Below are positions 7,128 through 64,000 of a DNA stretch of 64,000 nt, piece by piece. This DNA is from Allacma fusca (taxonomy: Eukaryota > Arthropoda > Collembola > Symphypleona > Sminthuridae). The stretch covers positions 76,681,067-76,745,066 of the forward strand of contig OX359245.1 of the NCBI GenBank assembly GCA_947179485.1, written 5' to 3'. The notes under the pieces were generated by a model. The model was given only the letters and a program-made list of their open reading frames with translations, had not been told where the DNA came from and made no database searches. Made by a program: the position numbers and the translations under genes. Every line of letters begins with the position of its first letter. Position 1 is the stretch's first letter.

Positions 7128-9076
7128 GCCTAAATATATGTATAAAAAAAATAAGTGCGAAATGTTACTATTCTTCTGCCTGAAACCTTTCTGATAAAAG
7201 ATATCCGAGATGCCAGAATTAGTAGACGAGTTGTTCACGGCACAAAATTGACAAGCCAAAAATGCCCCTTTACTAAAATATTTGAAGCATAATGTACAAT
7301 TGGAAAATACTGCTGGAAATAGGAAAATGGGAGATTTCTCGACTGACAGCTGTTAAATGGCATGAAAATCCTTAACTCTAATTTTAGCGTTTATAAAATA
7401 TACACGTCAGCAAAAGAAGATATGCACGTTTACCGACATTTAGCTTTTCAAACAACTTCGGAGTCATTAATTGTGTTTTCATAATTGTTCAACTGTTCAG
7501 CGTATTGGCTTGCTATACTATTAGTCCAATTTAAAAATAATTTTTATAATAATGAACAATACACATTGTCATGTAAATTAGTGGGAGATTTTGTTGAAAC
7601 AACAGGAACAAAACAACGACAAATGTTTATTCGTCCGACAAATACAACAGCAGTTACAACATTTGAATTCAAAACAATAACTGTGAGTAACAGATAACAA
7701 TGAGTGTAGTACACTGTTAAACCTCGTCATCAGTTTTGAATATAATTTGCTTTAAATTGAAGTTGAGGGTTGAGTCGAAGACAACAAAACAAAAACATAA
7801 CCAAACGGCAACAAAATAATTACAACCTAAATTGAAACAACTAGTAATAAAAATTAAATTCAGTTGGTCTTTAGCGCACCCTAAATAATGTCGACAACAT
7901 AAGAAGATTTATTGTATATTCCAACGTGTTTTGTTTTCTTGCTAAAATGGAATTTTCACAGATATTGAATACCATATAAACACATTAGATGTCAAGATTA
8001 AAATCATGCTAGCGAAAAGTATTTTAAGCCAAATGATCTCATTCTACACCGCTGCGCCCCAATAAAATTTATGCTGCCTGAACTACTCTGCAGTCCGTCC
8101 GAATGTGCAGGATTCTCACTCAAACCAAAAACAAACACACGAGCCAATGTTGTATTATAGATCCGTTTCTATTATGTTGATTCTCAATCTTCGTGGCTCG
8201 TAAGTAAGGTATCAAAAATAGTGTTCAAATATCTGCACAAGTAATTATTTTTAGCATTAATGGTCGACATTAGGCTTAATTTGTTTTTACATCCAGCAAT
8301 TTAGGAATAATTACAGCAGGTTGCCGTATTAACTTTTCAGTTTAACGAAATATCGATGTTTTCAACCCTTCGACTTCTGGAATTTTATTGTCTTCATTGG
8401 GTTTAATTACCATTGAATTATTCATTAAAGTCGAAGGAAATGTTTTGACATTATGGATCAAAAGGTCCCACCTGCGCAAAATTTGTCTATTTGTGTTGAT
8501 GATGCCTAGAAACATAAAATATGTGCGGTATACCTGTAAGCCTGACTCAATACTTACTTAAACACTTTTCCAGCATTTTTAATGCAAGGGTCGAACTTTT
8601 ATGAGAAAATTGGGAGATTATCCAGAGGGAAATAATATTTCTGGCAGGAAATAATTTTGTAAATATTAAACGGAAGGGGTTCAGTTTTTCAGCGAATAGG
8701 GATTTTTTAAATTCGTTGATTATTTTTTGGCCGGGATTTGAAAATTTGTTGGCGTGTTTCATGAAAATAATTATGTTGATGACATTATGATGATATAACT
8801 CCTTAATCCAGTTTCTGTAGAAATCCTTTCCAGCAGTGCGGTTGACAATTTAGTTGACAGACATCATAATTAGAAAGGAGTTCAGACACTATTGATTTTC
8901 AACAGCCCTGTGTAGTAATGACAAGAAACGTGTGGCGAAAGTGTTATATATTTATTATTTCGTTTTTAATTTTGTCTAACTATGCTTACTGGCAAGGTCC
9001 AGAGACATTCCTAAAAAAAACAATTAATACTCAGTATTTGCTTGTAAACAGCTTTACGGTAATAATTAATTGAATA
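7128..9076. other. Duplicated flanks of A2 and B1
   Basis: No gene is recognised. About 7490-7760 repeats the A-family 5' flank. About 8095-8190 has a block around TGCAGGATTCTCAC that recurs near 28125, 40150 and 45835. On the minus strand that block reads as a short conserved phrase (GLxENPAxSDxLQ), which could be an exon of an unidentified gene. About 8770-8900 repeats the B-family upstream region found at 60830-60930. Confidence 0.4.
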
Positions 9077-9957
9077 CAGTGAATTTCCCATATAGTGGTT
9101 TCCTCTTAGATGGCATTCCCTCTTTAATGGCACCAAAAAACCCTCCCTAGAGGTTTGCAATGTTAAAGGTATACAGTATTGTGACACCCGCTATAATGGT
9201 ATTCCCTCTATAATGCCACTATTATATATGTGTTACGGTGGCTCGGACAATGCAAAATTATAATGGCAGTTGGCATAAAATTAGCTAGATAATAGCTACA
9301 AAAGTATATATATTATAAAACGTGAGGGCGGTTAATAATGCTTATGTCGGTTGGTTCAATTTTAATTTCAAATGTTAATACAGTTTGATTATTATTGTGG
9401 TTTACTGACGACCTGGTATGATTAGCTGGATTTACGGCATATGATCCGTGACTTAAGTTAAAACGAACAGTTATAACACAAATCATTGCCATTTTTGCCT
9501 TGCCTCACTTCTAATAGGTTTCAATTCGTGCTGGTTTTTTAAAATAAATTGAATTATTATATTGAAGATTTAAAATGACATTAAACAGACAGCCAAGCAA
9601 AACCTCATTGTGAAAAAACCGCAGAGTACTCGGTGGAAGTAATTATCATTGCAATAATTCCAGGATTTTGGTTTCTGGAATGGTAACCTTGCAGTCGAAA
9701 AGTTTGTTACAACTAATAATATTAATAGTATGAGGAAACCTAAAGTTACTGAAAATCTTTAACTCGATAAAGCTTAGCATACCTCATAATTTTGAGTATT
9801 CTGTAAAAATAAATAAATTTATAAATGTATTTAGTTACAGTTATTGTCTAAAAACATTAATAGTATATAGTTAACCATTAGTAACATACAGTGGCATTCC
9901 TATATATTGGCAGGAATTTGTCACTCCCTTGGAAACCACTATATAGGAAATTCACTG
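9077..9957. mobile_element. MITE copy 1, TA target site, 27-bp TIRs
   Basis: 881 bp bounded by inverted repeats beginning CAGTGAATTTCC (27 bp, one mismatch between ends) and flanked on both sides by TA. Copies 2 and 3 at 36992 and 57811 lie in the opposite orientation. TA duplication and a CAG start are typical of Tc1/mariner-pogo group non-autonomous elements. No transposase is encoded. The ends contain internal repeats of phrases such as GGTTTCCTC and GGCATTCCCTC. Confidence 0.85.
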
Positions 9958-9959
9958 TA

Positions 9960-10488
9960 TCCTCCAAATGTTGTGGCTTCCTCTTAGCCAGGATTTGCTT
10001 TATATTCGTATGCTCATATTTTCCCTAGGATTATATATTTTTTATTCACGAGTAAGATACAATGGCATATTCATAAATTCGTAGGTATTTTGCATCCCAT
10101 AGATAACACAGCACAGGAAATTCACTGTACTTGAAACTGTAATCAACAGCTCCGAACAAAGGTATATCGATATAGACACATTTCATTTAACTGTCCAACC
10201 AAATTTTTCCCTCCTTAATTACGAATCGTAACCGACCATTATTTCAGACGTGTAAGTATTTTTTATTGAAAAGCCATATAATTACAATAAATTATTATGT
10301 GAACAGAATTTTATAGATAATTATTAATGTTGGGACATTTGATTGCATCAAGTTAGCAAAGGAGAAATTTCCTATTGAGAATTGAATTGCGAAAAGTATT
10401 TTTCCATGCCACCTGTATTCAGACGGGAGTTTAGTCCTTTGGTCTTGAATACACAAGTAGGACCAAAATTTGGGGGGTTATTTCCAGG
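9960..10488. other. 5' flank of B1 with a solo MITE end
   Basis: No gene. A TTCACTGTA element end occurs at about 10118-10131, probably a relic of another related MITE. From about 10190 the sequence resembles the upstream regions of B3, B4 and the 57.2-kb remnant. Confidence 0.4.
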
Positions 10489-36659: not shown

Positions 36660-38115
36660 TAATTAATATTTTTGAAAATTTTGCCTTTGAAAACACGAGA
36701 ACCGTATTTGTAATTTTTAGCGGAACTGCCGAGGCTGCACATAACAGTTATTTTTTCATCCGCAATTTTTACTATACTTAGCACCATTAGTTATTGCTTT
36801 ATACTGCCACAATTCCCAGTATTTTTCGCATCTTGGGCTGATGACTTTAATTGCTGGGACTCTACTTCCATTTTAATTTTTGGAGCTCCTATACTCTTAA
36901 CTTTATTATCGGAGGCAATGTTTTTGGGGTTTACTGCCATTGCCTTAATGGTTTTTGATTCTAGAATTTGTGGACAGCTTAGGTAAGAATACAGTGAATT
37001 TCCTATATAGTGGTTTCCAAGGGAGTGACAAATTCCTGCCACTATATAGGAATGCCACTTTATGGTACTAATGGTTAACTATATACTATTAATGTTTTTA
37101 GACAATAACTGTAACTAAATACATTTATAAATTTATTTATTTTTACAGAATACTCAAAATTATGAGGTATGCTAAGCTTTATCGAGTTAAAGATGTTCAG
37201 TAACTTTAGGTTTCCTCATACTATTAATAATATTAGTTGTAACAAACTTTTCAACTGCAAGGTTACCATTCCAGAAACCAAAATCCTGGAATTATTGCAA
37301 TGAGAATTACTTCCGAGTACTCTGCGGTTTTTTCACAATGAGGTTTTGCTTGACTGTCTGTTTAATGTCATTTTAAATCTTTAATATAATAATTCAATTT
37401 ATTTTAAAAAACCAGCACGAATTGAAACCTATTAGAAGTGAGGCAAGGCAAAAATGGCAATGATTTGTGTTATAACTGTTCGTTTTAACTTAAGTCACGG
37501 ATCATATGCCGTAAATCCAGCTAATCATACCAGGTCGTCAGTAAACCACAATAATAATCAAACTGTATTAACATTTGAAATTAAAATTGAACCAACCGAC
37601 ATAAGCATTATTAACCGCCCGCCCCGTTTTATAACATCATGTTATACTTTTGTAGCCATTATCTAGCTAATTTTTGCCAACTGCCATTATAATTTTGCAT
37701 TGTCCGAGCCACCGTAACACATAATAGTGACATTATAGAGGGAATACCATTATAGCGGGTGTCACAATACTGTATACCTTTAACATTGCAAACCTCTAGG
37801 GAGGGTTTTTTGGTGCCATTAAAGAGGGAATGCCATCTAAGAGGAAACCACTATATGGGAAACTCACTGTATTGCAGATCATAAGTTAATAATTTACATT
37901 TAGTTAGTATTAAGCGACCATATCAAGGGTATATGAGGGATAAGTGTCAACGTTGTACTCTTGGTAATGCAGTAACTCCATGGGTGCGTAAATCCTTGTG
38001 GTCAATTCGATCTGTGAAGGTCATGATCGGACCCTACTACTACGCTGATCGCTATATTCTCCTAACAATTTGTAAAATCATTTTATAGAAAACAAATAAT
38101 TTACGTTTGTCGACG
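36660..38115 (+). pseudogene. Family B receptor remnant B3, split by a MITE
   Basis: Exon 2 sequence (about 36700-36982) still ends with the family donor AG|GTAAGAAT, but its frame is broken. MITE copy 2 is inserted 9 bp after that donor. Exon 3 resumes at about 37915 and runs to 38115 with several indels (the SYYYAD-type region is recognisable). Exon 1 is missing: the sequence before 36660 is the B-family upstream flank joined directly to the exon 2 border. The gene is clearly dead. Confidence 0.75.
36992..37869. mobile_element. MITE copy 2, inside the B3 intron
   Basis: 878 bp with the CAGTGAATTTCC terminal repeats and TA on both sides (36990-36991 and 37870-37871). Its orientation is opposite to copy 1 and equal to copy 3. 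Very similar to copies 1 and 3 throughout. Confidence 0.85.
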
Positions 38116-50330: not shown

Positions 50331-51529
50331 AAAATGAGGACGTTAAACGGACAAAGTTTGTCTAGTGTACTTTTTTATATGTGGAAAATTTTGTAGAATT
50401 ATGATGATGCCGAGTTGCATGAACTATATAATCAAAGGCAGGGTCGGGAATGACAACTGACGCTTCACAGGCACTTGAGCCACTATTTAAGCAGAGGGAA
50501 GCTATTAATAAATACAAACTGCTATTCATTTTGTCGAGTCAACTGGAAAGTAAGGGGCCATTCATTCAATTGGTGACGCTAAAAATTGCACATTTTACCC
50601 TACCACCTACCACAAGTAATGTAACCGTAACGTTGGCGTCTATAACCATGGTTTATTTGTGTTTTGTACAATTTGATACATCTACCTTCCGGATCTCTGA
50701 AGTAGAATCATGTGCATAGAAGTGTACCTATGATCGTCCAATTTTTTCTTTGCATTCGGTGGTGGCTAAAATCGTATTATTCGTTATTGAAGTACCATTA
50801 GGAATTTCAGTTCTTGCTTTAATATTTGAATTCAATATATTCAAACTAAATATATGTATACTTTCAGATGAAGTGGTTTATTAAGACCCACATTGAATTT
50901 CTCATTGTTGCATGCAGAATACAGACATTGGAAATGTTCAACCGTCGAACGGTTGTCTGAATTGAAGGTAGAAGACGGATTAGGAAGGATAAGGGAGGTA
51001 ATCGGATTTAGTTTGCAAATATTTATGAACCATCACAAATTTCCCTAACTGTTCAAAGTTTCCTAACATGCCTAATATCTATACACGAATTAATTAATTC
51101 ACTATATTTCATCTGTACAACCATGTTCTGAAATAATTTTTGCAAAATGGTGGGCACTTGTTGGCTCAAAGAAATCAAAGACAGTAAATATGGTAAGTTG
51201 TATGCAAGGATTAGTTTTCTACTCTAATAACAAATTAGCTTAAAATAAATTCTTTATTTCTAACACAGATTGTTATTACATACATATTTAATTAAATCTC
51301 ACTTTACAGCACTGTATTATTTATTATTAGTTAATATTTTACATAAGTACCTAAATCAAATGCCTAATTAAACAAAAACTGCCGAGTAGATTCAACACCC
51401 ATTGATTATCAAACTATCTACAACAATTAATTATGTTTTACAAATCTGGGCTTTGATTCTTCCACACACTCCAGCAGCTTTTGCTGACCAGTGGTGTTGT
51501 TTTTCCACCGGGTCAGTTGACATTACATA
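50331..51529. other. Intergenic before the terpene synthase 3' end
   Basis: C upstream flank to about 50560. Then comes a stretch beginning GGGGCCATTCATTCAATTGG that resembles the end of a DNA transposon; no partner end was found. No gene is recognised. Confidence 0.35.
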
Positions 51530-52709
51530 TTATTCTATACTAACAAACTCATGCAAGACTTGGTTTTTATATCGATACATTTTTAAGTGAGTTTGAATAA
51601 TACAGGAAATGATTATCCCCCCATGTTCAATTGTTTTCCAGAATATTTTCTTGTCTTCGTGATTTAGGTCAATTAAAAACCGTTCGTCTGAGAGTAAGTG
51701 CTCAACCTCCGTTCGAAACTCCTGCACTTTTTTGTTATGTTTTTCAAGGGTAGATTTCAGGGCTTTTTGAAAAGTTTTATTTTTCGTTTCCATAGTAATC
51801 AGTATGATGTTATCAATGCGCTTTCCAGTTTCTCTGGCTTCTTGCAATTCTTTCAGTACACTTAACGTGTCATTAATCAAGTAGGCCAGAGTTCGCCCAG
51901 ATTGGCACAGTCTGTTAAAATAAAAGTTCCGCCGTATATTTTCGGTGGGTTGTATTCCGTCCAACATCAATACAAATTCAAGTGGAGGATCAAAACCTAC
52001 AATTCGTGATCGCAGCTCGTTCCGTAATTCCAACTCAAGATAATGAGTATTATTTGTGCTCCCAAACCACGTTTGTAATTCAAACTCCTCGCAGAGTGCC
52101 CGGGCTAAGCACGTTGACGCTTTTGCAGTTACGTGAAATTCTGATTCCATGTCTTTCACCACATCGAAAAACACGAATATAATTCCTACGTCAAAACGAA
52201 TAATTTCTTTTAATATCAGAAATTGTTGATCCTCTTCAATGTTCTCAAAAGATTCAAACTCAAGCAAGTACATTTTTTGGAGTAAGCGACCAAGACTACG
52301 GAAAAAATCTGCGTGCCGGGGATGCCCAGCTAATTTCTCGCAGACGTCATCAATTATGAACAAGCAATAAAAGAAAACGTTAAATAGTAACAATTTTCGG
52401 TAAGCCTTTTGATTCTGTTGTGCTTGTTCTGCCCAGCTCGTGCAAAATGTTGCCATCTAAACGGAATCCTTAATTAAAGGAAGAGGGTCAAATCCTTCTG
52501 GCCATGTTATGCGCTTTGTAGAGTATGTAAGCACATCGGAAGATTGCTGATAAATAAAGTGGCTGAAAATTATCCAAATCTGCCACCCACTGATAAGGCC
52601 ACCCAAATTCAAACTCCCCAGAAAATTCCGCAGCCTCTGATTCAACCACAGGAATGCGATTATTGTTATTTTTGAATCGCCATTTGCAAACTTTTTCTGG
52701 AATTTCCAT
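51530..52709 (-). CDS. Class I terpene synthase (canonical/microbial type)
   Basis: Predicted 349-residue enzyme that would ionise a prenyl diphosphate and cyclise or rearrange it to a terpene, in the cytosol. Exon 1 is 52709-52587 (41 codons, MEIPEKVCKW). An intron 52586-52457 (weak GTGGCA donor, TTCCGTTTAG acceptor, 130 bp) joins in phase to exon 2, 52456-51530 (308 codons). Exon 2 residues: aspartate-rich motif FIIDDVCEK at 34-42 (DDVCE 36-40); arginines 145, 149 and 151, where the diphosphate sensor is expected; the complete NSE triad NDTLSVLKE at 195-203; and an RY pair at 295-296 near the C-terminus. Helical spacing and total length match bacterial, amoebal and fungal terpene synthases. 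The second motif is NSE rather than DDxxD, which separates it from insect IDS-derived enzymes. Motifs are intact; substrate and product are unknown. Confidence 0.85.
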
Positions 52710-53311
52710 TGTGTTGTCCCTAGAAGGATTACAACTGGTTTAAATTTCAACTGGCTTCGAAAACCGAAAGCCAAATTCTGCAACAAATAGATCTAGAAGT
52801 ATTCCTAATCAAGGACTGGATATATTATTTCCGAAAGTTTGTATTTATAGAAGCTATAGATGTACAGCATTTGTATATAGTTACTCTGTAATTGCTTCAT
52901 TACCAAGATTACTAATTGTAAGCATGACTGTATTTCCAGATAATTAAATTATTGCAATTTTTCAACTTGAAGAAAAACCGGTATAAGATATTGTTGGGAA
53001 AATCGAATGTAATAATTAGATTTTATTACAATCGAAACACCTTGGGAAAATAAGCGTTTCAACTTTACATGCGGATAGGAGTTAGGCTAATGCAAGTTCG
53101 GGCCGGTTCTAAAGCTGAAGTTCTTAAAATCCGGCTTTCCCAACACGAATAGTGAGATTGGCTACTTTATAGTTCTCATGTTAATTTCCATAAAAAATAA
53201 AAATTGTTATATTTTGACGAAAAATTGAATTTTTATTATGAGTCCACGAGGTAGCGTTGGTTTTCTCTTAAGGTTGATATCGCCACATATAACTAGATAG
53301 ATCTACTATGA
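52710..53311. other. Upstream of terpene synthase, no gene recognised
   Basis: AT-rich. On the minus strand this would include the promoter and any 5' UTR of the terpene synthase; no clear TATA box or further exon was identified. No target duplication of the adjacent LINE was recognised. Confidence 0.4.
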
Positions 53312-56300
53312 ATATCAGGGGAAACAGTACTATATGGTGTTGATTCTAGTCAAAATGTGATTATAGGTGGGGATTACAATTGCAGAGTTGGGAATTTGGA
53401 TTTGCTTCCGGAGGAGTTGATTGCTGGAACAAACTTGAAATGCGAAAGAAATTCAAAGAATGAGGTGGTACACAGAGAAGCACAAAAATTATTAACTATT
53501 TTTGGGAACTGCGGACTAATCATGCTAAATGGTAGGACGGTTGGTAATTTTGAAAGAAATTATACGTTCGTTGGAAATAATGCCTGCAGCACTGTTGATT
53601 TATGTTTTATAAGTTATGAAATAATTAAAAACATTAATTGTTTTGAAGTTGCAAATATAGGGTCATCTGATCACTATCCCATAAGCCTAATATTGAAATG
53701 CAACAACAGAGCTGTTAAGGTACCACCAGAATACACCAGCCAGAAATCTATAAAGCCAGATACCAAGTCTGTCTCGGTTTTTAAAACCCGCTTAGATGAA
53801 ATGGGACCACCTGAAGGGTCTGATAATATCGGAGAGTTTTTAGAAGCATTAAATAAATCCCTAAGTCAGATAGCGGAGGAAACTAATTGTCTGATACCTC
53901 GCATCAGAATCTCTTCCTGGCAATGCCAGCCATGGTTCGATCTAAGCTGTAGACAGCTAAAGAGGAAGATACGATCATTGGCAAGGGTGCTAAAAAACTC
54001 GGGGAACAAGACATCAATTAGGGAGGAAATAGTTAAATCTCGTAAAAGGTTCAAAAATTTATGTCGCGAAAAAAGGTTGCAGTACTATAATGATCTCAGG
54101 GAAAGTATTGGTAACAGCAAAAATTCAAAGCAATTTTGGGAGGCAGTACGCAGATTTAGACCAACAAGCACACAAGGAACGGAGGTTAGTAAGGTAAGCT
54201 GGGAGAGTTTCTATAAAGGCATTATGCCAAATAAAGAGATCAGTTATACTTATCTAAGTAATACTGGAGAATATTTTCTAAATAAGGAGATATCAATGCA
54301 GGAGCTTAAGGAAGCAGTGAAGAAAATTAGTAAAGGAAAGAGCCCGGGTGGTGACGGTATCACCAATGATTGCCTCAAGGCACTTCCTGACAGCTGGTTA
54401 CAAGCAGTGTTAGATATATACAACAAAATGTTTGATCAGGAATACTGCCCAACATCGCTAACAGAAATAGAGATAATAACATTATTTAAGAAAGGGGCAA
54501 GAGATGATCCGGCAAACTACAGGGGCATAGCACTAATAAGCTGTATTACAAAGTTATATACGCAGATTTTGTTAGATAGAATTGTAATATGGGCAGATAG
54601 ATGTAAAATAATACCAGAGAACCAAGCTGGATTCCGTAAAAAGCGATCATGTGCTGATCAGGTATTTACCCTGGCAGGTATTATACGGAACCATATAAGA
54701 TTTCCAAAGAGAAAGGTCTATTCTATATTTGTGGACTATAAAAGGGCATTTGACTCGGTAAACCACACATTGCTATGGGAAAAGCTACACAGGTTAGGTC
54801 TGAGTGGAAAGATAATCCGAATTCTGCAAAACATATACTATCAGGCCAGGCTCAGAGTTAGAACATGTGAAGGGTATACTGATTTCCAGGATATAAATGA
54901 AGGGGTGTTACAGGGAGAGATTCTGTCTTCAATGCTGTTTTCTTTGTATGTATCAGACTTGGAAAAATATTTTCATGACAACCAGGCAGTAGGAATTAGC
55001 ATAAATGAAACTACTGCTATTCTGACTTTGATGTATGCGGACGATACTGTAATCCTCGCATACAGCCCAGGAGATCTGAGGAAGAAAATAGAAATTCTAG
55101 AAGACTACTGCCAAATAAATAAGTTACAGGTAAATGCGAGTAAAACCAAGATTATGATCTTTGCAAAACATTTACCTAGAGTTTTACCAACTTTCTCATT
55201 TGAAGGAAAAAAGCTAGACTTGGTAAAGGAGTATACCTATTTAGGAGTCCCATTTCACTCTACAGGGTCATTCCGACTAACAGCAGGTTTTTTCAAAAAA
55301 AAAGCAGTAATAGCACAAAATGCAGTCATTAATATAATCAACTCCTCTAGATGCAATTCATGGAACTCAATATGTAAATTGTTCGAGTCAATGTGCATGT
55401 TTAATCTTTTGTATGCAGCAGGAATATGGGGTTTGGGACACGAAGGGCTAGTGGAGAGCCTTCAAACTACGTTTTTTAGAAAAATTCTAAGAGTGAGTCC
55501 CAAAACTTTAAACCATACCATAAGGTTAGAAGCCGGACGTTGTAAAATCAGTTGCACAATAATCAAATTATCATTGGCGTATCTATATAAAATCCTGAAA
55601 ATGGATCGTAGTAGATATCCATATGTTACTTTCCAGAAGCTTGTAATGATCGATTCCAACACTCAGTTCCCCCAAACTGGAACTGGGTAACGAAAATTAA
55701 GGATAATCTTAACAAATTTGGTTTTCGGGTAATGTGGGAAAATATAAATCCTCAGTGGATTGAGATTAACTATAAATCCATACTAGAAGCGGCAGCGGCA
55801 GCTTCAGTTATGGACGACGTAGAGAAGGTCATGTGTTCAAAGCAAAATCCTTTGTATAAATTTATGCTTAGGGGATCAGTGGTTCCAAAATATTTAATGG
55901 GGGAGTTATCATTACAAATGGTTAGATTCATGGCATTTTTACGCCTGGCAAACCCGATTGATTCGAAAATTGATTTAAGGGGAAACATACTAGAAATAAG
56001 CCCAAATAAGCCATGTATACTATGTAACTACTCGCAACAATCATGGCAACACTTACTTACAGAATGCTCTAAATTAAGTTATTTAAGAATCAAATATAGT
56101 ATTATTAATGAGAATATAGACAACACACGGACACATCTAAATATAATATGTGAATCAAATCCGGTTATTTTAAACAGTTTGTACAAATGGTGTATAGAAA
56201 TCGCAACACAAGTATCAAAACATCAAACTGTATCACTACGGTAAAGTATGGAAATCTAATACGGGTCTAAATGTATCTAATTACTATTTGTAAATCTTTT

Positions 56301-56345: not shown

Positions 56346-57565
56346 CATAGAGCGTTAAAGAACTTATTGAAATATTTTAACTTTGGAAAGCTTTTGATTT
56401 CCTCATCTGTAATAACTATTGTACCGTTTTAGCCTAGGGACGTGTTTGGTAGCTTGCCGAAAGGTCATGCAGTTTAACAAATATAGCGAAGGATATTTTA
56501 CTTTTGAAATTTCAAAATCCCAAACGTTTGGAAATGTAATATTCATTCTACCCTTACTCCAAGCTGAGGAAAATGTTTTACAAGTTGTGCATACTTAGTG
56601 CATGTGTGGCTTACTGAACGATGTGATACTTTGTATTAAATCAATTGGATGTGATGATCTTCACCCTGTCCATTGTATTTTTGATTTTTATTACTTCTGT
56701 GTCCAATATTTTGATGGATCTGCATGTATGCAAGGTAATTTTATTTTTAATCGAAAACATCTGTAGCTTTTTCTACTCGTCAATGAAAGTATGCAATATT
56801 ATCATTGCCATAAAGGTATCATACATGATTATCTACATGTAACATACTATGTATTGCATTTAAACAGTTGTGGATAACGTACCTGGGTATGACTATAGGT
56901 ACGACACTGTGATACCCGAGTATGGGTACAATGCGGGTACAGTTACATGATTTCAAATTAGGTACTAATACTTGTTTAGGTAAGTACATAATTTCTATTG
57001 ACAGGTGTTTTGCTTCCCATGGGAATCACTATACTGAAAATTAACTCTATTGAATTTGTAACAAATAGTACGGAACAAAACCAGTGTGCCAGTATATACA
57101 CATTTCCCATTCTCATTTAATGTTTCTTTAGACAATTAAGTAACTTGTCTTATCTTTCTAACAAAACGTTTTTCCTCAGTAAAATACTGTAAGCCTCAGT
57201 TTACACTTATTAATTCTGAGATGTAGTTCTGTACTGGAAACACCTGTAATTGTAATAAATTATTGTGTGGCCAGAATCGCATATAGTTAATTATTAGTAT
57301 TGCTACACTTGCTAATAACACGTTAGCAATGGAGGAACTACATATGGAGATTCGATCAATAAAATATAGATATTTCTCCATGAAACCTGGTTCCACACAG
57401 GTTAATACACCTGCAAGTAATGCACCTTTAAGTGGCTGCTCATCACAGGCTCCGTTGATGGGATTTACTGAGGGAATACCCGTACAGGGATTATTTCTTA
57501 TTTACTTTTATTTGGAACCGGGAAGTTATTATTCAATTAGTTGCGGTATTCTCTGGTCATTCAAC
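56346..57565. other. Intergenic, B-family upstream flank
   Basis: 56640-56842 is a hydrophobic open frame without recognisable family. 57080-57310 resembles the upstream flanks of B1, B3 and B4. Exon 1 and exon 2 of a B gene are absent here. Confidence 0.35.
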
Positions 57566-57760
57566 GGTATATGAGGTATCCTTTGCAAAGTTGTACTCCT
57601 GGAAAGCTAAAGAGTTTCTCCAAGTGCGCGTGAGTCCATAATGTCATTTCGTCCTGTCCAGGTCATGATCGTAACCTACTACTACGCTGACCGCGGCATT
57701 GTCGTACCATTCACAAAATGATTTTTGAGAGAACAATTAATTTACATATGTCAAATTAAC
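57566..57760 (+). pseudogene. Family B receptor exon 3 remnant
   Basis: Matches the last third of B exon 3 (region encoding STLHSWKG to SYYYADRGIV) with several indels, ending near TTAATTTACATATG. MITE copy 3 lies 50 bp downstream. Confidence 0.7.
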
Positions 57761-57810
57761 TGTTAGTAATGTCAATACTACAAACCTCAAATATATTTAT
57801 TTACATTGTA

Positions 57811-58685
57811 CAGTGAATTTCCTATATAGTGGTTTCCAAGGGAGTGACAAATTCCTGCCACTATATAGGGATGCCACTATATGTTACTAATGGTTAATTA
57901 TATACTATTAATGTTTTTAGACAATAACTGTAACTAAATTCATTTATAAATTTATTTATTTTTACAGAATACTCAAAATTATGAGGTATGCTAAGCTTTA
58001 TCGAGTTAAAGATGTTCAGTAACTTTAGGTTTCCTCATACTATTAATAATATTAGTCGTAGCAAACTTTTCGACTGCAATGTCACCATTCCAGAAACCAA
58101 AATCCCGGAATTATGGCAATGGGAATTACTTCCACTGAGTACTCTTTTTCACAATGAGGGTTTTCTTGACTGTCTGTTTAATGTCATTTTAAATCTTCAA
58201 TATAATAATTCAATTTATTTAAAAAAACCAGCACGAATTGAAACTTATTAGAAGTGAGCCAAGGCAAAGATGGCAATGATTTGTGTTATAACTGTTCGTT
58301 TTAACTTAAGTCACGGATCATATGCCGTAAATCCAGCTAATCATACCAGGGCGTCAGTAAACCACAATAATAATCAAACTGTATTAATATTTGAAATTAA
58401 AATTGAACCAAACGACATTAACATTATTAACCGCTCGCACGTTTTATAACATCATGTTATACTTTTGTAGCCATTATCTAGCTAATTTTATGCCAACTGC
58501 CATTATAATTTTGCATTGTCTGAGCCACAGTAACACCTAATAGTGCCATTATAGAGGGAATACCATTATAGCGGGTGCCACTATACTGTATACCTTTAAC
58601 ATTGCAAACCTCTAGGGAGGGTTTTTTGATGCCACTAAAGAGGGAATGCCATCTAAGAGGAAACCACTATATGGGAAATTCACTG
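57811..58685. mobile_element. MITE copy 3, TA target site
   Basis: 875 bp with the same CAGTGAATTTCC ends and TA flanks (57809-57810, 58686-58687). Same orientation as copy 2. Confidence 0.85.
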
Positions 58686-58689
58686 TACG

Positions 58690-60240
58690 TACCAAGATGC
58701 TCCTGTACTTTTGCTCATCGTCACACTCGTAGCAGTAGTACCCGTAGTACTTGGGACTTCGACATAGTTACCCATTTGACATGACAATTGGCAATTTTTT
58801 ATTAATCATAGTAAACGTATTTGGTACATTGCATGCTAAACTTTGTGAAACAACGGACCGTTATAAGCTACGAAATTACTTAAATGTCGTCATAATGCGG
58901 ATTCCATTCTACAGGAGGAGCTTTTTACTTTCAGACTTCACGGTTGAATCACCTTTAAATTGTAGTAGAGTATTTCAAATTAGACGAAATTCTTAAAAAT
59001 GAACTTTGGTGGATTTTAATTATCGTAAATACGTACTACTAAATTGTAAATGATGGGAAGATTTTATCTGCCTTAAATCATGCACAACTATTAACTGTCA
59101 TCTCACAAGCAGATTTGTAATTTTTTAATATAAACGCCTGTATATATTATAGCATCCTTGAATACGCCTACTTTGGAAAACGTTAGTGTATATTATATAG
59201 GAAATTCGCTTTTATTAACCTATTTTTAATATCATACATTCAGGACGTCTTTAATTACGAAAACGCTTTACAATAATTTCTGTACAAGACCTTTTCAGCA
59301 GTGTGGCTGACAGCCGAGTCAATAGACACAATAGATAAATTATTCCAGCATTATTCCCTCTGCATTCAGATTCGTGGCAACATATTTGAATGTAGAGACC
59401 TTTTAGAGACCTCCCAGGAAGACGCATACATTTTCCTAGAAATGAGCTTGAAAAGACGATCTCTTGTTCTCCACTTTCCATTACCATTGAAGTTTTAGAG
59501 TAAAAAGACGGAAATTATATAATTTTTACCATTACCCTTAATGTTGGCTAAGACGGGGAAACATTTGTTAATTTTCACCCTGTACATCGAATGAAAATAA
59601 TGTAACAGCAGAACAGTGTGGTCTACGACGTAAAGCGACGTTACAATATAAGCCTTTTATAAACACATTTTCCTCCCAACAAAACACACATGCAAATTTC
59701 CGAAAACTTAAATAGTTATCGCCTAACTGCAGGCAATTTTGCAGGTACAAAATGAATTTAGAATAATTTATTATTAGGTTTACCTGAAAGAGAAAAATCG
59801 TTTTTATTAAAGTAGTAGACAGTAAAGCTCGATTGTTAATAGTAGACTGCCTTCCCAAATAGTAGCTAGTCTACTAAAATAGTTTACATCTTTCAACTTT
59901 ATAAATTCGATACATTGTGCACGGTGCGAGGAAAACTCTTAATGTTGTGAAATAACGGACACGGTAACGCAAAACATTACAATCAATAGAATTTGAAATT
60001 ACTTAAATATTGTCAAGTGCGGATTCCATGCGATAAAACGAGCTTCAGACTTTACATTAAATGAAATTAGACGAACTTCTTAAAACAGATTTTGTATTCC
60101 TTAAATCACCCACAACTATTAACTCTCATCTCACAATTATATCTGCAATGTTTTTAAATAAACGTCTACGTACATCATACCTTCTCTGAATATGTCTACT
60201 TTGAAAAACGTTCCTATATATTATTTAGGAACTTCGATTT
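58690..60240. repeat. Tandem duplicated block without firm gene
   Basis: 58790-59200 and 59910-60240 are diverged direct repeats (shared GAAATTACTTAAAT, GCGGATTCCAT, AATTAGACGAA and CACAACTATTAACT phrases). In the first copy a plus-strand frame from about 58785 reads TIGNFLLIIVNVFGTLHAK and continues through a charged segment. It could be a receptor exon, but it is destroyed in the second copy. Function unknown. Confidence 0.4.
59345..59498 (+). other. Possible exon, conserved phrase QIRGNIFECRDL
   Basis: Partner of the segment at 48860. The plus-strand frame reads QIRGNIFECRDLLETSQEDA and continues YIFLEMSLKRRSL. Family not recognised. Confidence 0.3.
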
Positions 60241-60389
60241 TTAAAGCGAAGCGCTTTTGTAAAATTGCTCGTTTTTCATTTTGTCCTTCTAAAGGCTCCC
60301 GCACGGGACAAGATACAACCGCCGGACCAGCGGCAAACGACCTGTTGGGTCCTGGACTTGGGAATAACGCCTTTACTTTTTCAATTTTC

Positions 60390-60720
60390 GAAATTTCATA
60401 AAATTTCATAAAATTTCGAAAATTCCCCGAATTCACTTAAAAATCCAATTTAACCGTACAAACGAATTCGTTGATCACTAAAGTCGTGGAAAATACCTTT
60501 CCCGCTCAAATTTCCTGATCGAAAATATTCCGAATTTACGTAAAATTCTGATTTAACCGCTCGAAAGAATTCCTAGATAAATAAAATCGTCGAAAATACC
60601 TTCCTCGCCACAATATTCAAAATTTTATGAAATTTCGAAAAAACTTGGGTTAACCACAGGAACTAGATTTTAACTCGTTGATCACTAAGGTCGTAAAAAA
60701 TACCTTCCCTGCCTTGAAAT
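60390..60720. repeat. Degenerate ~110-bp tandem repeat
   Basis: The phrases TTGATCACTAA, GTCGT, AAAATACCTT and AAATTTCATAAAATTTCGAA recur about three times at intervals near 100-110 bp. No coding sequence. Confidence 0.5.
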
Positions 60721-61369
60721 CCGGCTTCGCTTTTGTTGCAATTGATGAATCGATTGCAGTTTTGGATTTTTTATTAATCAATGTATTGAATCGCAAATTC
60801 TACGCGTAATTATTTAAGAAAACACCTTACAATAATTTTTATAGAAAACATTTTCAGCAGTGCGGTTGCTAATCCAGTTGACAGACATTAACAGATATTA
60901 TAATTACAAAGGAGTTCAGCCACAGTTGGTTGATGTAAAGTGTAAACGTTGTAAAAAATTACATTTAGATATTCTGATTTGCAAATTCCGTTTTTAACTT
61001 GTTTAATTCGTATTTCGATTCAGACTCATTTCCCCTGTTCACTATTAACGCTTAATGACAGTTAAATACCTTGTTTTGTCTATCTAGCTAAACATTTTCC
61101 TCCGTAATTACTAACTGGAAGCAATCAATAATTCAGAAATGCAATTATTCTGTGTGTATATCCCTTAGAATTAGAATAAATTATTATTTGAGAAAATAAT
61201 TGTACAGGTAATTATTCGCATTGCGAAACTTGATTTTAACACGTTAGTAACTGAAGGAACTAACCATTGAAAAAACTATTTTCGCATGCCTTACTGGTTG
61301 AAGATATTACTTTAGTATAATAGCCCGGAGCGCACAAGTAGGACCAAAATTTGGAGAGATATTTCCAGG
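60721..61369. other. Promoter-side flank of B4
   Basis: Resembles upstream regions of B1, B3 and the 57-kb remnant. The segment GCACAAGTAGGACCAAAATTT just before the start is almost identical in B1. The reading frame is open upstream of the ATG to about 61316, so a longer or spliced 5' end is possible. Confidence 0.4.
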
Positions 61370-62742
61370 ATGCCAGATATAGGACCTATTGCAGATATTT
61401 ACTTGCGCAAGACCTCCCAATGGATGGTATTTGCTTGCAGTGGACCGTACGACATTGACAACACCACGAAAAGAGTTGTTAAAACTAAATCTCAGAAACG
61501 AATGATTTTCTGGATATTATTTACAACTTTGAGCTGGATATACAAAATTTTTGTGTTAGTGAGGTTTATTCAATACATGACTCGGGACGACGAGTTTACA
61601 AATTTAATGAAGCCTCTACTTACTGTTTACACTCTTCTCCTTGGATTTGTGCTTGCGTATCAGCTAAATCAATTTGTGTATTATGAAGAGCTGCCGATTA
61701 TGCTTGAATTGTTTGTAAATTTGAAAGCTGATTACAAAGGTTCCAAACCTACAAAAATAGTTATTTCATGCTTAGTTTCACTGTTTTATAAAATTTTAAT
61801 CCGGGAATGAATTTTTATTAATATTTCAGAAAAATTTGCGATTCAGAAACCCAGAACCAAATTTGGAGAGATGTGGGCGGACCGGTCAGGGCTGTACATG
61901 GCAATTGTTTTTTACTCCGTCATTTTCATTTTGTTAGGCTTTATTGTTCTATGCTTTTTACTGCCACAGTTCCCAGGATTTTTCACATCTTTGGTCGATG
62001 ACCCAAAATCCTTAGATTCTGCTTTCATTTGCTTCTTGGGGGTACCTATACCCTTAATGTTTTTCTCAGATTTGCCGCAGGGAATATTTTGGGGGTTAAT
62101 ATTTTACGCCATAACGTGTTTTGGATGCGAGATTTGCGAACAGCTCAGGTAAAAATATTATAATTTGGGGGATAATAAATGACATTTATATAGAAATAAA
62201 CTTCAGGTTTTCATCATTGATTGAATTTGTTTGAAAAAAAACTTGACCAACTATATTCAAAAATACATTTTTATAGGTTGACCAAAAACAAGTATAATAC
62301 TGTTGACATACTTCGAACGGAAGAAAACTTTGTCAAATACTACAGACGTCTGGCGTTGATTCAAAATTTGGCAATTCGTATTTTTAGCCCAATCGTCATG
62401 CCTGCCTTCGAGTGGTTGCTAATTGCAGGGTCGGTTTTTGGAATTTACGGGGGGATCACAAGCACGGGAATATTTTCTTGTTTACTTTTCTTCGTCGCAA
62501 TTGTAAAAATTATTGGCTTGGCTGTGATATTTACGGTTATGTCAAGGTTATACGAGGGATCATTGTCAACTTTGCACTCCTGGAAGGGCAGGAGTGGAAC
62601 TCCGTGGGCGCGTAAATCCATACGTTCATTTCGTCCCGTGAAGGTCATGATCGGATCATATTACTACGCTGACCGTGGTATTGTTCTAACAATTTGTAAA
62701 ATTATTTTTGAAAACTCAATTAATTTACTGATTTCGGCGTAA
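61370..62742 (+). CDS. Family B seven-TM chemoreceptor-like protein B4
   Basis: Intact 384-residue predicted membrane receptor. Exons are 61370-61739, 61830-62148 and 62277-62742 (370+319+466 nt = 385 codons with stop); introns are 90 and 128 bp, GT/AG, phases 1 and 2. Hydrophobic segments lie near residues 39-58, 73-95 and 138-160, two more in exon 2 (ICFLGVPIPLMFF, WGLIFYAITCFG), and two or three in exon 3 (WLLIAGSVFGIYGGI, LLFFVAIVKIIGLAVIF). The C-terminus is SFRPVKVMIGSYYYADRGIV plus a final hydrophobic helix, comparable to the TM7 region of arthropod gustatory receptors, though the TYhhhhhQF signature is absent. B1 to B3 are broken relatives. Ligand unknown; receptor identity is inferred from topology, length and gene clustering. 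Confidence 0.7.
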
Positions 62743-63344
62743 TTGTTATTTTCAGTAATGTTTTAAAGTTGCAATTACTAATTGGTCCAAATTACTAATA
62801 GAGACTTTTCGATTGCAATTCTAACTGGGATTTATACAATGCCAGATGTTCTTACAGAATGTATTTGCTTGAAAAATATTTCGAATTACAAAAGGGTTCA
62901 CGCAGAAATACAATAGATAAAACAAAACTGTGATAAAATCAATAAAATATTAAAATATGTGTCCAAAAATGCGCTTATTCACGTATACCATCTTATCAGT
63001 ACCTACCAGTACCACAAAAAGCTCGCCCTATCAAGAACGCAAAAAGCTCTATCAATAAGGTAGAGCTAACAAAATAAATGCAGCCAAACGTTCTCTTTAG
63101 CAAAAACGTAAAATAAGTGGGGCAGACCCATGCACACGATTTTTTAAAATAAAAGTAATACCTGTTCAGCATGCTTTGGCACCAGTAATATTTTTTGATA
63201 CATGTTAATCCAGAATATTGAGGGTGGTACAATAGAAAAGCCTGTACAACCGGGTGTTTCAGGGTAGTCCATTGTGTTACCTGACCCCTGTTCCGCCGCC
63301 AATGAATTTCTTGCCAATTTATTGTCAGAAAATGTTTTGATTAA
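62743..63344. other. B4 3' flank and spacer
   Basis: No gene. 63010-63330 is paralogous to 19780-20050, the spacer between B2 and C2, and includes a GGGTGGTACA motif. Confidence 0.45.
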
Positions 63345-63397
63345 ATAGCATTGCCCTTCATACGAGAAAAGGAATTGTTTATCCTCTGGGGTCCGTT
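63345..63397 (-). pseudogene. Family C exon 3 scrap
   Basis: About 50 bases encode GRTPEDKQFLFSYEGQC on the minus strand, nearly identical to C1 and C2 exon 3. It is cut off by the adjacent GGGACGGG minisatellite. Confidence 0.75.
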
Positions 63398-63660
63398 CTA
63401 GAGCTTCTGCCGGGGACAGGGACGTCCCGTTGGGACACTGGGCTGACCGGGACGGGACGTCCCCGGGACAAAATAATTGTCCCCATGTCGTATTCGGGAC
63501 GGGACGGGGACAAAAAAATTGTCCCCATTATATTCGGAACGGGACGGGGACAAAACAAACGTCCCCATTATGTTCGGGACGGGGCCAAAAAAAATTTCCC
63601 CACTATATTCGGGACGGGATGGGGATAAAATGTTGTCCCCATTATATTTGGAACTGGAGA
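63398..63660. repeat. GGGACGGGACGGGGACAAAA minisatellite
   Basis: Units of about 40-42 bp combine a GGGACGGGACGGGGAC run with TGTCCCCATTATATTCG, so each unit has the inverted words GGGGACA and TGTCCCC and can fold back. At least five units are visible, GC-rich within AT-rich DNA. Another partial unit closes the window at 63962-64000. Confidence 0.85.
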
Positions 63661-64000
63661 TGCTTTTTGGTCGTGTGTATAACGGGACGGGACGAGCAAA
63701 CATAGCAGAACAAGAATAACGTTTCAACTTTAATGCCCATGAGTGAACTATTTTGTGAGCATTATTTGACCGAATGTAAGGCATTCGATTTTAGGTTGTA
63801 GAAAATGAAGCTTGTTGCTCAAAAAGTTAAGCAAGAATCTTGGAGCTACGATTCTATAAATGTATTTTTTATGTTTTTGTTAAAAATATTTTTTGTACGA
63901 AATTTTCCTCATGTTCCGATTTTTGGTATGAGAATGTCGACAACTGGTTTTAAAAAAATATCAGGACGGGACGGGGACGGGACAAGAATTTTGTCCCCAA
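63661..64000. other. Between minisatellite copies, no gene
   Basis: AT-rich sequence without recognised gene, ending in a second GGGACGGGGACGGGACA block from 63962. The two blocks may be the two ends of one element, or part of a larger array cut by the window edge. Confidence 0.4.

Follow-up and report, generated by a model that had tools for sequence, protein, structure and literature searches.

The springtail Allacma fusca carries a large family of terpene synthase genes, and the member that lies in the stretch of DNA analyzed here (the window; 64,000 nucleotides, C1:76,681,067-76,745,066, on chromosome 1, the longest chromosome and an autosome) is very probably a recently inactivated canonical class I gene. 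Our results support the assignment of the family to the canonical, microbial-type class I terpene synthases and its residence in an arthropod genome, as an earlier reading of the window sequence (hereafter the original prediction) had proposed. The same reading had regarded the frames of the window copy as intact, which they are not. The interest of the locus sits in the family: the window copy is a broken member, and roughly half of the family's loci have open frames.

The window copy carries two lesions absent from its closest paralogs

The relic of the gene occupies exactly the range that had been assigned to the synthase, from the former ATG to the stop (Table 1), and can be aligned end to end with the intact paralogs L009 and L016 (loci at C1:55.21 and 55.23 Mb), which are 87% and 85% identical, respectively, to the main open reading frame (ORF) of the window copy. 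Both paralogs are read in a single frame from ATG to stop, with no intron and neither lesion. DNA alignment with these paralogs placed a one-base insertion in the window copy within a run of three T; the frame that begins at the former ATG runs into a stop, and the main frame is interrupted by an in-frame TAG. Both lesions fall within the first 85 codons. When the genome was searched with the L009 protein, the window copy was recovered as two pieces in different frames, one matching L009 residues 1-55 at 80% and the other matching residues 33-392 and holding one TAG. The copy has no continuous frame that includes the N-terminal segment, owing to the frameshift near 52558 and the TAG, and its disabling lesions have no counterpart in the closest paralogs, as expected of a pseudogene. 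A recent pseudogene is thus the most likely status of the window copy.

At the column of the TAG, 8 of the 23 aligned paralogs, L009 and L016 among them, have Trp and the remaining 15 have another residue; as judged from the aligned sequences, Trp at this position is conserved solely among the nearer family members. The probable intron of the original prediction did not hold up either. An ancestral intron was excluded, L009 and L016 being uninterrupted and without an AG at that place. Further, the supposed acceptor AG has no ancestral status because it is part of the TAG itself and is missing from the five paralogs examined, out of the eight that bear Trp.

The remaining open frame has the features of a class I terpene synthase

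The window ORF matched PF19086 (Terpene_syn_C_2) at 36.4 bits against a Pfam cut-off of 23.7 (E 5.7e-9). At E<=1 no further Pfam family was matched, PF00348 and PF03936 included. The motifs listed in the original prediction, namely DDVCE, an NSE motif about 160 residues away, an arginine 44-50 residues before it and a C-terminal RY, were all found; DDVCE and NDTLSVLKE are 159 residues apart, and the arginine is R149. The columns that do not vary across 24 aligned rows (23 paralogs and the window ORF) include D37, W130, R149, R182, N195, D196, E203, R295 and Y296, and we take the Arg and RY places to be those that define the pyrophosphate sensor. In a model of the window ORF made with AlphaFold2, the mean predicted local distance difference test score (pLDDT) was 86.9 and the predicted template modeling score (pTM) was 0.86. 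The predicted structure fits the all-helical class I terpenoid synthase fold, a check that the original prediction had called for and that came out in its favor. The pLDDT of this ORF-only model was below 50 across the final 14 residues.

Other searches with the window protein gave little. With phmmer, the single ORF had two weak dipeptidase-type matches in the PDB (E 0.0088 and 0.012, residues 232-284), and a terpene synthase ranked below them (E 0.65). The dipeptidase-type matches were rejected; neither was listed when the family profile was used at E<=1. NCBIfam yielded six weak matches, half of them to terpene cyclase models, all far under the cut-off. No relative was found in the phages and plasmids searched, and none was confirmed in viral contigs, where six stretches matched a pattern.

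The family in the A. fusca genome

PF19086 matched 51 stretches of the A. fusca genome at E<=1 (search space, 392,743,791 bases in 91 contigs) and none of the 14 control prokaryote genomes. When the protein of an intact paralog was used as the query, 63 stretches were detected, which merged into 55 loci: 35 on C1, 14 on C8, 3 on C9, 2 on C10 and 1 on C12. Going by their lengths, we took C8, C10 and C12 as chromosomes 2, 3 and 4, and C9 as X2. Locus counts are lower bounds, since they come from a six-frame search. Because the loci are spread over five chromosome-size contigs, contamination, the objection that the original prediction had raised against itself, cannot explain the family. Full-length single open frames (at least 390 codons stop to stop, without an internal stop) were found at 28 of the 55 loci, including L004, whose first ATG comes no earlier than residue 114; the remaining 27 count as broken or partial, and some of these may be split genes. 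By the same stop-to-stop test, all three loci on X2 were broken or partial, and no terpene synthase locus was found by the six-frame search on the contig taken as X1.

All 24 rows matched PF19086 at E<=0.1, and PF00348 and PF03936 were absent from the matched families. The motif pair DDxx(D/E) and NDxx(S/T/G)xxxE, in which we assume that G is admissible at the S/T place, was present in 22 of the 22 full-length rows, with the first D changed to G in two. These two, L010 and L014, are otherwise intact and have GDLCE where the first metal-binding motif carries DD; their catalysis may differ. The N-terminal WPY-W residues were invariant in the 22 rows. In the predicted structure of L009, strands are found at residues 8-14, 30-35 and 384-390, and the rest of the synthase fold is helical; the N-terminal strands appear to pair with the C-terminal strand in this model. 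The first strand lies beyond the aligned range in 49 of 50 solved-structure rows.

The region C1:947,330-966,024 (L021-L024 and L037) contains four open copies in tandem, spaced by 4,407 bp, plus a broken one. Three of the open copies score identically and the fourth nearly so, and on these search scores and the spacing the tandem appears to be a very recent amplification. A second expansion concerns genes of the isoprenyl diphosphate synthase (IDS) fold: PF00348 matched 58 stretches, which merged into 32 loci on C1, C5, C8, C9, C10 and C12, 24 of them in at least two pieces. These loci (L047-L052 and others) cluster, for example at C1:29.21-29.24 Mb and C8:60.60-60.81 Mb, and several pieces hold stop codons, which may reflect introns or decay. 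The size of the terpene synthase family in A. fusca and this second expansion are possibly new.

Origin of the family and of the window copy

In a phylogenetic tree, the 24 springtail rows were separated from 20 bacterial rows by a single branch with 100/100 support, on long branches. The springtail rows were the window ORF and 23 paralogs drawn from the 55 loci (L004, L006, L022-L024 and L033 were left out), and the bacterial rows, which made up the whole comparison set, were picked by their match to the springtail profile. Bacterial synthases were also the best matches of the family profile among solved structures (5.4e-7). Profile-profile comparison of the springtail family with 11 bacterial terpene synthases gave a probability of 98.9%; these 11 had been found with the springtail profile, so that the comparison checks homology and says nothing of the donor. 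Within the phylum of Corallococcus, the springtail profile had matches at E<=1e-4 in 5 of 195 genomes (best E 9.9e-17); within that of Streptomyces, the figure was 9 of 396 (best E 4.3e-15). Since these two phyla were the only ones searched, no donor can be named. A nucleotide pattern applied to genome contigs gave mostly Streptomyces records among the 80 loci listed of at least 118; the pattern loci included many long frames with two PF19086 matches, observed in 4 genomes, which are presumably of the geosmin type.

A horizontal origin of the family, as originally proposed, is consistent with the branch between springtail and bacterial rows and with published arthropod cases. Of the microbial groups that had been suggested for the phylogeny, bacteria were the one compared. 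A single acquisition with later expansion is probable though not proven, as the branches are long and the comparison rows all bacterial.

In blastn searches against the loci at 55.2 Mb on C1, positions 51344-53222 of the window matched L053 at 82%, and L055 was matched over 51316-52764 (85%) and 52764-53283 (73%). Because the homology spans the gene plus its flanks, the sequence indicates a duplication at the DNA level, of a unit of about 2 kb, rather than a processed copy. We envisage that a microbial-type gene entered the lineage by horizontal transfer and was then multiplied by DNA duplication. The intact enzymes, which keep both metal motifs, the Arg sensor, the RY pair and the WPY-W N-terminal segment, would bind Mg2+ and a linear prenyl diphosphate, ionize it, and cyclize the carbocation to a terpene. 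The window copy would have arisen as one of these duplicates of about 2 kb, would have been functional for most of its history, and would now give no full-length enzyme.

Selection and alternative explanations

Constraint was examined in the 22 full-length rows, with L003 left out. Across 19 pairs of intact copies at no less than 60% identity, the ratio of nonsynonymous to synonymous substitution rates (dN/dS) ranged from 0.10 to 0.46, and the family is thus mostly under purifying selection. The dN/dS between the window copy and L009 was 0.19 over 308 codons, and by this comparison the window copy is likewise taken to have been constrained for most of its separate history.

Several observations weigh against recent inactivation in a constrained family. 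L002 and L003, a recent intact pair, have a dN/dS of 0.63. The private changes of the window copy, which include any on the branch leading to L009 and L016, comprise 25 nonsynonymous and 26 synonymous ones, where neutral change would be expected to give 36.1 and 12.3, respectively. For 51 random changes, the 95% range of synonymous changes is 7-18, and 2.6 stops are expected, with a 6% chance of none; the private changes of the intact sisters were 7 nonsynonymous and 13 synonymous in one, and 15 and 11 in the other. The 308 codons after the stop therefore show, at the sequence level, no clear relaxation or decay, and a cryptic splice could in principle restore the frame. The lack of clear relaxation means either that the inactivation was very recent or that the remainder is still used.

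If the remainder were still used, the locus would make a protein that is either truncated, starting at ATG 52456, or spliced through a new intron (e.g. 52586 to 52457) that skips both lesions. Upstream of the lesions, the stretch from the start codon on contains four in-frame GT sites, one of them at 52586; the TAG itself provides an AG directly before ATG 52456; and the 308 codons that follow form an open frame that looks constrained. However, L009 and L016 have neither an intron nor an AG there, and both products would lose the segment before MATF that is present in intact rows; the truncated form would also lose the invariant WPY-W residues. The final 14 residues, poorly predicted in the ORF-only model, are to be set beside the strand near the C terminus of the intact paralog and the two near its N terminus. 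We consider continued protein production unlikely. Slightly less probable again is that the lesions reflect polymorphism or misassembly and that an intact allele is common. Two lesions in a still constrained frame do fit a very recent loss, but the assembly has a quality value of 58.7 and 80-fold HiFi coverage (PMC10427803), one lesion is a base substitution, and the insertion sits in a run of only three T.

The third alternative concerns the family as a whole, which might derive from an animal IDS in the manner of the flea beetle enzymes. The same genome does hold a large PF00348 family; against this, none of the 24 rows matched PF00348 at E<=0.1, the NSE motif stands where IDS-derived enzymes have a second DDxxD, and the profile-profile match joins the family to bacterial terpene synthases, albeit ones found with the springtail profile first. 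We give this derivation almost no credence. Recent inactivation of a canonical synthase gene is thus retained for the window copy, which also serves as a caution: motifs can look intact in raw sequence when the gene is dead, and it is the paralogs that decide.

Surroundings of the locus

Left of the relic lies a duplicated-gene array whose homology ends at 50544. To the right, from 53312, is a non-long terminal repeat (non-LTR) retrotransposon, a neighbor separate from the synthase gene, the open frame of which begins within the endonuclease domain. The array occupies positions 1-50544 and 56980-64000 at about 65-86% DNA identity. It contains multi-membrane-span ORFs that are gustatory-receptor-like by eye, with no Pfam match among those scanned, and DUF4789 ORFs, one over and one under the Pfam cut-off. 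A repeat of about 885 bp occurs in three copies at 94-97% identity (9073-9963, 36986-37873 and 57809-58687); it is younger than the surrounding array and is perhaps a mobile element.

Table 1. Features of the terpene synthase locus and its neighborhood (window positions)
Feature	Position	Strand	Remarks
Relic of single-exon class I terpene synthase gene	51530..52709	(-)	Former ATG at 52709; stop TAA 51530-51532
Former-start frame (MEIPEKVCKWRF...WPYQW...)	52488..52709	(-)	Stop at 52488-52490
One-base insertion site in a run of three T, exact base ambiguous	52556..52558	(-)	DNA alignment with L009 and L016
In-frame TAG	52457..52459	(-)	Trp codon in L009 and L016
Window ORF, carrying the PF19086 domain and every class I motif	51533..52456	(-)	308 codons
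Aspartate-rich motif DDVCE	52337..52351	(-)	ORF residues 36-40
Pyrophosphate-sensor-like Arg, R149 of the ORF	52010..52012	(-)	Invariant in 24/24 rows; 46 residues before N195
NSE motif NDTLSVLKE	51848..51874	(-)	ORF residues 195-203
C-terminal RY pair	51569..51574	(-)	ORF residues 295-296; invariant in 24/24 rows
Duplicated unit common to the C1:55.21 and 55.23 Mb loci	51316..53283	(-)	Gene with ~570 bp upstream and ~210 bp downstream
Non-LTR retrotransposon (endonuclease, reverse transcriptase, zinc-binding tail)	53312..56241	(+)	PF14529, PF00078; zf-RVT under cut-off

Comparison with known systems

Canonical terpene synthases are rare in animal genomes, and dozens of them beside an expansion of IDS-fold genes make A. 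fusca a ready system for the domestication and diversification of a foreign enzyme in an animal. A tentative and rather doubtful extension is that the A. fusca lineage has a large private terpene chemistry, with about 28 open canonical genes beside about 32 IDS-fold loci and fast copy turnover, the window locus being freshly lost and possibly polymorphic. If this were true, chemotype differences among individuals or populations would be directly testable. Springtail cuticles contain unusual cyclized terpenes (PMC11321324), and the family may help to explain the unusual terpenes of other springtails (PMC11321324; curvisetone, PMC11959583). In the cuticle survey, the single Symphypleona species had no terpenes except 'ch', which from the context is cholesterol (PMC11321324); this speaks against a simple extrapolation of the cuticle chemistry to A. 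fusca.

Canonical synthases in arthropods are already known as a kind. Large, laterally transferred families of the microbial type are described for trombidid mites, in which clusters orthomcl65 and orthomcl1284 have low identity to microbial relatives and one has up to 39 members (PMC6275457). The mites and A. fusca are alike as soil-dwelling arthropods with large microbial-type families; the clusters differ in being those of a mite and are likened here by their description. In the same report, the Folsomia candida synthases known at the time were nearer to the flea beetle ones (PMC6275457), and the F. candida genome paper gives two clusters related to terpene metabolism (PMC5490193). Five terpene synthase genes of a fungus gnat apparently came from mites (PMC12051294).

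Among the open papers searched, we found none that pairs Allacma fusca with terpene and none on canonical synthases of springtails. Chen et al., in PNAS in 2024, reportedly described active canonical synthases from springtails, mites and sciarid flies. Those enzymes would resemble the A. fusca family in being microbial-type class I synthases in arthropod genomes; a locus count in one springtail and a broken copy are what is given here.

The flea beetle synthases (Beran 2016) are animal enzymes derived from an IDS; the A. fusca family has the NSE motif and PF19086 instead. The best structure matches of the window ORF were (+)-T-muurolol synthase of Roseiflexus castenholzii (9hqd/9hqi) and 10-epi-cubebol synthase of Sorangium cellulosum (7zrn), at 14-15% identity over the structural alignment. 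Both share the fold and motifs of the springtail family, and their sequence-profile matches reached 5.4e-7 and 5.2e-6, respectively. The intact springtail protein has some 20-30 extra N-terminal residues relative to most solved-structure rows, and the T-muurolol synthase chain 9hqm_B aligns from model residue 9.
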